A DNA stretch of 64,000 nt from an uncultured Chthonomonas sp. (GTDB lineage Bacteria; Armatimonadota; Chthonomonadetes; Chthonomonadales; Chthonomonadaceae). The stretch spans positions 62,001 to 126,000 of the forward strand of contig CAIONQ010000107.1 of assembly GCA_903859705.1 (NCBI GenBank). Direction: 5' to 3'. Position numbers and translations under genes: made by a program. Positions 44,644 to 47,114 of the stretch are shown here, one piece after another (position 1 is the stretch's first letter; each line of letters opens with the position of its first letter). The notes beneath the pieces are model-generated. The model had not been told where the DNA came from. It made no database searches and saw nothing but the letters and a program-made list of their open reading frames with translations.

Positions 44644-44853
44644 AAGGTGAACTAGAAACGGGACTGCCAACTTAATGCCAGCAGCAGATTAAGAGTGATG
44701 CAGAGTGATGCAGTATAACAAAAAGTGGGACGGAGGGCAAGCGGAGGACGCTTAGCTGAGCTGGCGGGTGTGACCTGTACGGTAATAATAACCAGTGAGG
44801 TAGTTCGAAGAATTACCGATTTGGCGTGCCGAAGGCAGCACCGGACGATTTAC

Positions 44854-46236
44854 TTACACCATTGGAACCAGATGTTCATTTTGTAACACTCCAACCTTGA
44901 ACACTCTTCCCTTTTGTTCTGAAATGAGGCCGGGGTGCAGATCCATAAGTAGGTGACACAGCCCCACTACATTAGTAGAGTTGTGCGGCAGTTGCTCTGC
45001 AATTTTGTGCGCAACCTCTTCCGTGCTGGCACTTCCGCCTGCTTTGCCCACGCTGTAATATAGTGTATCGGAAAGGCCATGCCATATCCCATGTTTGCTG
45101 GCAGCTAATTTAAGCAACGCCCTGCGTTCTATTTGCCGAACTCGTTGGGGGGTAATGCCTATTCTGATTGAAACTTCCCTCAAGGTTAGCGCGCCATCTA
45201 TGTTCTGTTGTGGTCCCAGCTCTGGCTGCGCATCGTACAGCCCATATCGCATACAAAGTACAGCCCATTCTTTGACTTTAAGGATTATTTGCATTGTTAT
45301 AGCAAGCTCATCCAGTGTAATTGTGCTTGTTAGAGGTGTTACTGTTTGCTCCCACTCGGCAGAAGCATCACCTGAGCGTATTCCAAGCTCTACAAGGCAA
45401 TCCCAAATGTTTTGAAACGCAACTCTATCAATACATAGCGCTGGTATTGGAGGACTTAACGCATGCAGCAGTTGCTGAATAGTGAAAATGGCGCTGTTCT
45501 TCAAAAGGTTGAGGGCGTGTAAGCTCAGGTTAAGTTGATCAACCCTCCGGTGGGTTAACTCAGCTTCAATTGCCTGGCGATCCCGTTGCATATCCATGCC
45601 CTGCGCTGGCCCACGGGAAGCTGCCTCCCTCGCTTCAATAGCTATAGTAACTAATGCATTTAGGAGTTCATTGGCGATATCTTCCCCGAGCAATTGCCGT
45701 GCTTCGCTCCATGACCAGTTCAGTAGGCAGCTTATATTGTTGCCAGAATGTTTAACAACATCCAAGGCGAACGGTGCAGATATTTCATTAACTATGTTTG
45801 TGAGATCTGGAGGGGGAGCTGTGTGCCATGAGTGGAGATCCCACTCATCACCAAGTGTAAGTGGTGTATAGCCGTTACCCAGCAATGCCATTCTTCTTGC
45901 ATTTACCACCCTGTAGTGGGTGTTCACATTTGTTGTATGTATGCGATGATGCGGGGGCGGGCTTTGTACGTGCTGGATTATCTGCTGTATTGATTCCTGG
46001 GCAATCCCCTTTAACTGAAACAATTGCCGTACTGATAGATCCAGTAATTGACCAACCGTTGCAATTAATTCCCAGTTCAGTCGGCGAATAATTCTGTCGT
46101 TAAGGCCCAGCTTACTTATCGGTAAGTGCTGGATGCTATCTATCGCCTCACGTGAGAGCTTGAGTGCCACCTTAAGTGGCAGCTTGAAATCTTGTGCCTT
46201 TATTTCATCAAACAATTGAACGTACATTATTTGCAT
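44854..46236 (-). CDS. Alpha-CTD / sigma-70 region 4 / winged-helix fusion protein
   Basis: Protein of 460 residues. Residues 38-90 (ISKLGLNDRIIRRLNWELI, then TVGQLLDLSVRQLFQLKG) resemble the RNA polymerase alpha C-terminal helix-hairpin-helix domain. Residues about 228-285 (HRRVDQLNLSLHALNLLKNS, TIQQLLHAL) look like a second, divergent copy. Residues 329-378 form a complete sigma-70 region 4: MRYGLYDAQ, TLREVSIRIGITPQRVRQIE, RRALLKL. Residues 387-447 suggest a winged helix similar to HARE-HTH. Sigma region 2, needed for the -10 element, is absent, so it is probably not a sigma factor but a DNA- or RNA-polymerase-binding regulator. It has its own consensus promoter. Length, order of domains and role are not known to me. 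Confidence 0.78.
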   Translation of the reverse strand: MQIMYVQLFDEIKAQDFKLPLKVALKLSREAIDSIQHLPISKLGLNDRIIRRLNWELIATVGQLLDLSVRQLFQLKGIAQESIQQIIQHVQSPPPHHRIHTTNVNTHYRVVNARRMALLGNGYTPLTLGDEWDLHSWHTAPPPDLTNIVNEISAPFALDVVKHSGNNISCLLNWSWSEARQLLGEDIANELLNALVTIAIEAREAASRGPAQGMDMQRDRQAIEAELTHRRVDQLNLSLHALNLLKNSAIFTIQQLLHALSPPIPALCIDRVAFQNIWDCLVELGIRSGDASAEWEQTVTPLTSTITLDELAITMQIILKVKEWAVLCMRYGLYDAQPELGPQQNIDGALTLREVSIRIGITPQRVRQIERRALLKLAASKHGIWHGLSDTLYYSVGKAGGSASTEEVAHKIAEQLPHNSTNVVGLCHLLMDLHPGLISEQKGRVFKVGVLQNEHLVPMV

Positions 46237-46506
46237 GCTTTGCAGTATTGTGTTTGCGAATGAATCCAGATTGCGTTAGGAGATATTTTAAACGGTTCTG
46301 TACATATGGTCAAGCAAAGAAATGAGGAGTGCCGCCACATACAAATATAGGGCTCGTCAGAACTTTAGCCGCCGTGCGGGCTAATGGAAATCATATGGCA
46401 TACGGACACTTGCCGCATAAAGCGTTGCTACAAGTTCTGGTTGCCGCTATTGCACCTAAACTAATTAGGCCAACTACCTACCTCACTCGCTAAAAGCTGC
46501 GGCCAA
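46237..46506. other. Intergenic region with promoter of the alpha-CTD/sigma-4 gene
   Basis: 270 bases between the small unknown gene and the fusion-protein gene, both on the minus strand. Apart from the consensus promoter at 46285-46313 I see no gene, terminator or clear repeat here. Confidence 0.5.
46285..46313 (-). promoter_or_regulatory. Sigma-70 promoter of the alpha-CTD/sigma-4 gene
   Basis: On the minus strand TTGACC (46308-46313) and TAAAAT (46285-46290) are separated by exactly 17 bases. The predicted start near 46278 gives a leader of about 42 bases before ATG 46236. Confidence 0.78.
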
Positions 46507-46758
46507 TCAAACCCCAAATACCCACACCACTGAGGAGCTATGGAGAGGCCCCTTGCGGCTGATTAGCGTTACGCCAGCAGCTTCAATAAACGTTTCTCCG
46601 TCCAGGGCACTGCATACCACAGGGTATCGGGCTCTCAGTGCCAGTGCCGCATGTACTTCTGCCGCTCTTACGGTTACCGACCGCGTGCCCCGTGCGCGGG
46701 CGGGAATGATGTAAACTTCCATCACATGCTCCCGGATTTCATCTGCAAGCAATGCCAT
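46507..46758 (-). CDS. Small protein of unknown function
   Basis: A frame of 83 residues from ATG 46758, or 110 from ATG 46836/TTG 46839. I prefer the shorter form because the conserved-looking core begins there: ALLADEIREHVMEVYIIPAR, a basic helix, then VTVRAAEVHAALALRARYPV, VCSALDGETFIEAAGVTLIS and a hydrophobic VVWVFGV end. The RAAEVH.AL.L..RYP.VCSAL pattern recalls small helical DNA-associated proteins found by restriction-type and phage loci, but I cannot name the family. It precedes the alpha-CTD/sigma-4 gene on the same strand at 270 bases. Real gene likely, function unknown. Confidence 0.6.
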   Translation of the reverse strand: MALLADEIREHVMEVYIIPARARGTRSVTVRAAEVHAALALRARYPVVCSALDGETFIEAAGVTLISRKGPLHSSSVVWVFGV

Positions 46759-46866
46759 ATCAACGTCCCTTCGGGGCTTCGTATTTATCGCCTCAGGGGC
46801 GATTGCTGCATCGGCGAACTGCCGACAACCTACCATCAATGCATCCAGAACAACCTATATTGTAGC

Positions 46867-46906
46867 TGTAAGCTTACAAGTACCATGTAGTAACGGTAAA
46901 TTACTA
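46867..46906. promoter_or_regulatory. Operator-like palindromes upstream of the small gene
   Basis: TGTAAGCTTACA at 46867-46878 is a perfect 12-bp palindrome. At 46888-46906 TAGTAA and TTACTA form a second inverted repeat with a 7-base spacer. Both share the GTAA/TTAC half-site flavour and lie next to a TACAAT-like -10 on the minus strand, where a repressor could control the small gene and possibly phyH. Confidence 0.4.
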
Positions 46907-46988
46907 TACGTTTTATGGCAAAACAATCAATTCATTGGTTTGCAAGTGTGTTTTGGGGTCATTTGAGCGAACTGGCCCTTAACATCCT

Positions 46989-47014
46989 ACCAGGCGAAGC
47001 GTACTAACCAGGCG
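46989..47014 (+). repeat. Short direct repeat
   Basis: ACCAGGCG occurs at 46989-46996 and again at 47007-47014, 18 bases apart (start to start); the second copy enters the left arm of the terminator-like hairpin. Confidence 0.5.
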
Positions 47015-47042
47015 GGGCACATACTTCCCTACCCCGCTTTTT
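47012..47042 (+). terminator. Orphan plus-strand intrinsic terminator upstream of phyH
   Basis: GCGGGG / CCCCGC, 6-bp GC stem with a 14-base loop, followed immediately by TTTTT (47038-47042). It lies 73 bases before the phyH start, yet no plus-strand gene precedes it, so it would end a small RNA or attenuate phyH. Confidence 0.6.
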
Positions 47043-47114
47043 CCTCAGCATGTAGTAAAATTACCTGCACGGTATGTAAGTGGGCGATTTCCTGTGATGA
47101 GGTGATTGGCAGCT

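Follow-up and report, generated by a model that had tools for sequence, protein, structure and literature searches.

Gene locus and domain composition

The window (the whole stretch of 64,000 nucleotides that was analysed, from an uncultured Chthonomonas sp.) encodes on its minus strand, at exactly 44854-46236, a protein of 460 amino acids, which is referred to below as the target protein. Its open frame extends over 473 codons; when the stretch was shuffled 300 times by mononucleotides, the maximum was 226. The gene is flanked by ABC transporter, PhyH and M20 genes and does not belong to a BREX operon. The features of the locus are as follows.

44854..46236, minus strand: coding sequence for 460 aa, in which three alpha-CTD-like modules precede sigma-70 region 4 and what is probably a winged helix
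45964..46140, minus strand: alpha-CTD module 1 (residues 33-91); Pfam E 1.2e-10; hhalign 97.5%; Foldseek probability 0.96-1.00
45622..45789, minus strand: divergent HhH module 2 (residues ~150-205); hhalign gives 85% with module 1 and 32% with alpha-CTD
45367..45561, minus strand: alpha-CTD module 3 (residues ~226-290); Pfam 24.1 bits when taken alone; hhalign 74%
45097..45324, minus strand: sigma-70 region 4 (4.1 and 4.2; residues ~305-380); Pfam E 1.8e-9; alignment with sigma factors of the phylum
44893..45087, minus strand: probable winged helix (residues ~384-448); AGG..E pattern; three predicted helices, pLDDT 47
46285..46313, minus strand: promoter-like site TTGACC-N17-TAAAAT, a consensus match only, 48 nt upstream of the ATG
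46507..46758, minus strand: small gene whose 83-aa product is related to the N-terminus of McrB-like AAA proteins; tblastn E 6e-9
44671..47105: interval missing from genome G001 of the same genus, which has the flanking genes ~230 bp apart; G+C ~0.47

Two Pfam families match the target protein with scores above their gathering cut-offs: RNA_pol_A_CTD, in two stretches with the first at residues 33-91, and Sigma70_r4 at residues 321-377. Sigma region 2 gave no Pfam match at E up to 10, and the Pfam scan revealed neither region 3, nor the alpha N-terminal (dimerisation) domain, nor any further RNA polymerase or sigma domain. The rpoA model reaches 37.6 bits against a cut-off of 227.8, and the NCBIfam sigma models match partially, in the C-terminal part only and far under their cut-offs. 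The protein thus has in common with the RNA polymerase alpha subunit and the sigma-70 factors the isolated alpha-CTD and region 4 domains, but differs from them by the lack of the alpha N-terminal domain and of sigma region 2. This domain content is the one proposed in the initial annotation, whose view that the protein is not a true sigma or alpha subunit is likewise supported by the missing domains and the sub-threshold model scores.

The number of hairpins proposed there (one or two) turned out to be too low, as Pfam together with hhalign points to three. The reference for hhalign consisted of 30 alpha-CTD sequences from genomes of the phylum, and 60 column-shuffled profiles per module served as a control, the best of them scoring 2-9%. 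Module 1 (residues 29-94 in this comparison) is the clearest one; in Foldseek it was matched to the solved alpha-CTDs 7vpd_S, 9dvt_A and 1doq with 1.3-1.6 A rmsd, the E-values being weak since the remainder of the structure model is unreliable. Module 2 (residues 147-206) is undetected by Pfam and is recognized through its similarity to module 1 (best of 60 shuffles 8%). Module 3 (residues 223-290; best of 60 shuffles 9%) taken alone passes the Pfam cut-off of 23.8 bits narrowly. Judging from these profile comparisons, the target protein carries three predicted alpha-CTD-like hairpin modules, a third, divergent one having joined the earlier count. The full-length AlphaFold model, built with two sequences, is poor (pLDDT 44.5); its only interpretable part is the N-terminal alpha-CTD.

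Region 4 and the C-terminal part

Alignment with sigma factors of the phylum shows that region 4.1 of the target protein is diverged and is separated from region 4.2 by an extra loop of ~10 residues. In region 4.2, Pro363 and Gln364 stand at Arg584 and Glu585 of E. coli sigma70, which are positions of base contact with the -35 element, and the residues corresponding to Arg586, Arg588 and Gln589 are retained. The DNA-contact residues of the alpha-CTD are retained in part. The relative encoded on plasmid pIAD-21 (see below) keeps the consensus SRERVRQVE in region 4.2, and in the homologue from the metagenome-assembled genome G036 region 4 is degenerate. Binding to -35/UP-like DNA, as envisaged in the initial annotation, is still reasonable, though weakened by Pro363 and Gln364 and by the partial retention of alpha-CTD contacts. 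Given the part-replaced contact residues and the degenerate region 4 of the G036 homologue, sequence-specific -35 binding may have been lost.

The AGG..E pattern of the part following region 4 is kept in three homologues. A separate model of the C-terminal 83 residues consists of three helices predicted with low confidence, and its top Foldseek matches are mostly winged helices, none of them below E 0.7 (E near 1). A winged helix after region 4 is therefore likely in the predicted model, as a lead and not as a proof. The proposed resemblance to HARE-HTH did not hold: the HARE-HTH profile (PF05066) gave no match at E up to 10, whether it was run on the complete protein or on its C-terminal stretch by itself. 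In the relatives from pIAD-21 and genome G065, HARE-HTH matches marginally, failing the cut-off at E 0.011, in a C-terminal tail that the target protein lacks. Fusions of HARE-HTH were reportedly catalogued by Aravind and Iyer in 2012.

Relatives and their BREX neighbourhoods

With the full-length query, matches were found in 2 of 291 genomes of the phylum, the target's own and G036. The latter contains a full-length relative of 491 amino acids (contig SYMT01000678.1), solitary among unrelated genes, and scans of genome contigs gave no relative beyond it. In the plasmid collection one homologue was found, on pIAD-21 of an Abditibacteriota bacterium (BCM94557.1); viral contigs, phages and the other plasmids gave no more. 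It is annotated as RpoD, but of the sigma domains only region 4 is present. With region 4 masked in both proteins, the alignment to the target protein persists over residues 160-293 (28% identity, E 8e-11), and the homology thus extends beyond region 4. Querying with the C-terminal portion of the pIAD-21 protein brought two more relatives, of 1028 amino acids in G065 and of 589 amino acids in G269, the latter with its 5' end lost at a contig edge. The chain of significant similarity runs from the target protein via pIAD-21 and G065 to G269; compared directly, the target protein and the G269 protein show insignificant similarity (E 0.6) and are linked through these two intermediates. A profile search of the phylum (A1) was dropped for counting because region 4 pulled in ordinary sigma factors. 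The G065 relative (G065:C478:164-3250, minus strand) has a longer N-terminal HhH-like part; its downstream genes are lost, since the contig ends after 163 bases.

Longer members of the family stand first in BREX phage-defence operons, of which two are at hand, on pIAD-21 and in G269. On pIAD-21 (AP024153.1:88508-102865) an Eco57I-type methylase gene comes directly after the homologue, with no gap between them; next in order are DUF4007, a small AAA-like protein, a BrxC/SspC-like ATPase, PglZ and BrxL. This BREX-like operon is a mixture of type-4-like and methylase-based BREX, and its first gene, annotated rpoD, does not encode a full sigma factor. In the metagenome-assembled genome G269 (G269:C264:1-13051) a type-4 BREX operon lies behind a protein with alpha-CTD-like, region-4 and winged-helix-like parts; the order is the relative, a 185-residue stretch with no Pfam match, BrxP (PAPS-reductase domain), DUF4007, a BrxC/SspC-like ATPase, PglZ and BrxL. 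According to a survey of BREX systems, BrxP-DUF4007-BrxC-PglZ-BrxL is the component set of type 4, and DUF4007 is a BrxA-like DNA-binding unit (PMC12839542). Both operon leaders resemble the target protein in the succession of HhH/alpha-CTD-like modules, region 4 and winged-helix-like parts. In contrast to it, they are followed by BREX genes and possess extra C-terminal domains. The neighbour analysis of homologues proposed in the initial annotation was thus informative, with two relatives in BREX operons and with the target and G036 genes solitary.

Comparison with PglW and MzaA

The PADLOC model of PglW matches the target protein at residues 215-415 (E 2.2e-7) and the G269 protein in the equivalent stretch, at residues 90-254 (E 3.2e-10). 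The PglW score of the target protein is 21 bits against a cut-off of 990. The same survey describes the C-terminal half of type-2 BREX PglW as an alpha-CTD-like domain with several winged HTH modules behind it, and attributes to the protein, in addition, a NERD nuclease, kinases and an iSTAND domain (PMC12839542). As far as the PADLOC model allows the comparison, the alpha-CTD and HTH middle part is common to PglW and the target protein, whereas the NERD nuclease, the kinases and iSTAND are all absent from the latter by Pfam. The link to DNA-modification systems, originally drawn through HARE-HTH, therefore holds on other grounds, namely the relatives heading BREX operons and the similarity to PglW. 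MzaA of the MZA anti-phage system has in common with the target protein a sigma region 4-like stretch, but the match is partial, restricted to region 4 and far under the MzaA cut-off.

A NERD-kinase protein of genome G006 and its plasmid match were considered as PglW and rejected; they are other proteins. The G006 open frame (G006:C73:34000-38726, at least 1267 aa) matches PglW positions 43-775 and, by eye, continues into a P-loop NTPase-like part where PglW has its C-terminal half. It is possibly an unclassified defence protein.

Probable acquisition of the locus, and the small upstream gene

In G001 the permease and PhyH genes are neighbours, and neither the target gene nor the small upstream gene lies between them. 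The interval 44671-47105 is poorer in G+C than its surroundings (0.53-0.57), and the target gene is the lowest in G+C, GC3 and codon adaptation among the 25 full-length genes of the window that were compared, though by no wide margin. Acquisition by the target's genome is favoured because the interval is absent in G001 and low in G+C; probably, the target gene was acquired horizontally and jointly with the small upstream gene. Loss in G001 is less probable but conceivable, because in other family members the 1.5 kb examined does not have the permease next to PhyH. Nothing marks the insertion ends: the interval lacks terminal repeats that are long or near-perfect, and there is no intergenic DNA that can be aligned.

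The product of the small gene at 46507-46758 is 42% identical to the N-terminal part of AAA ATPases whose genes adjoin McrC on Klebsiella plasmids, and 47% identical to the product of a 98-aa ORF that is solitary in genome G055; related small ORFs occur in a few genomes of the phylum. The gene is itself solitary in the window and is likely to be a co-acquired neighbour of the target gene. In G100, a distant relative (L100:7109-7492) lies immediately before a gene for a 143-aa protein that looks by eye like a PIN-domain toxin, as in a toxin-antitoxin pair.

The initial annotation described the target gene as standing alone under its own consensus promoter. It does stand alone with respect to defence genes, but not with respect to the small McrB-N-related gene just upstream on the same strand. 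The promoter-like site (46313-46285) is present and agrees with the consensus at 10 of 12 positions; such sites are not rare in the window, however, with 9 found against 3.6 +/- 2.3 expected. Profiles of PglZ and McrC have no match in the target's genome (6.2 Mb, ~96% complete); in the DUF4007 search of that genome, the control genomes gave no match. No effector gene was seen in the ~2.4 kb interval.

Possible function

The best explanation, to which we assign a probability of about one half, is that the target protein is a solitary, probably acquired member of its family acting as a transcriptional regulator that binds duplex DNA at multiple sites and is not an RNA polymerase subunit. The family would consist of DNA-binding proteins built of alpha-CTD-like hairpins, sigma region 4 and winged helices. 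The target protein may bind several contiguous sites of duplex DNA together, the hairpin modules facing the minor groove and the helix-turn-helix of region 4 and the winged helix facing the major groove, and in this way it could regulate transcription from a few promoters or at the locus in which its gene lies. Since PglZ and McrC are unmatched in the genome, a role as an active BREX subunit is unlikely here.

Rather unlikely, in our opinion, is a role as an orphan defence component, in which the target protein would scan DNA or act as an adaptor: it would read invader DNA or a modification state and recruit effectors encoded elsewhere, perhaps together with the McrB-N-like neighbour. Such a role would suit the position of the longer relatives at the head of BREX operons, the PglW-like stretch and the relationship of the neighbour gene to McrB-like ATPases. 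It is less easily reconciled with the unmatched PglZ and McrC profiles, with an interval in which no effector gene was seen, and with the lack of the tail that bears the marginal HARE-HTH match in longer relatives.

It is improbable that the protein appropriates RNA polymerase or serves as a decoy, its region 4.1 replacing region 4 of the resident sigma factor on the beta flap, or its alpha-CTD modules touching resident sigma or alpha, with transcription being redirected or inhibited. Both 4.1 and 4.2 are present, and alpha-CTD and region 4 do sit together at natural promoters; but region 4.1 is diverged, an insertion precedes 4.2, and the operon context of the relatives indicates DNA defence, not control of the polymerase.

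The solitary state and rarity of the target gene, its low G+C interval, its shorter length compared to the BREX-linked relatives and the degenerate region 4 of the other solitary homologue (G036) could also be expected if the gene were left over from an earlier BREX island and were decaying, without any function today. We consider this quite improbable, as the frame of 460 codons is intact, the region 4 and alpha-CTD motifs are clean and a promoter-like site is present.

That the protein is an ordinary (alternative) sigma factor, as its full region 4 motif and the RpoD annotation of the pIAD-21 homologue might suggest, is very hard to accept with regions 2 and 3 absent by Pfam and the sigma models matching partly and far under their cut-offs; any sigma role appears unlikely because region 2 is missing.

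Novelty and significance

Each single domain of the target protein is already known, and so is a fused alpha-CTD/HTH array, in PglW. In the 2026 BREX survey, the section on type 4 has no such polymerase-derived leading module among the components, and to that extent a stand-alone alpha-CTD/region-4/winged-helix BREX leader is unnamed in the survey (PMC12839542); priority is uncertain, and Aravind and Iyer (2012) may mention it. Tentatively, we suggest that the proteins form an undescribed family of polymerase-derived DNA binders. Its members would serve some BREX systems as the subunit for DNA recognition or control and would correspond, as stand-alone proteins, to the C-terminal half of PglW; solitary descendants would work outside BREX.

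Two BREX operons with a PglW-related, polymerase-derived leading gene suggest a common DNA-reading or control module. Such a module would bear on how BREX systems find or regulate their targets, and its solitary versions, like the one in the present genome, would let the module be studied without the remaining BREX components.
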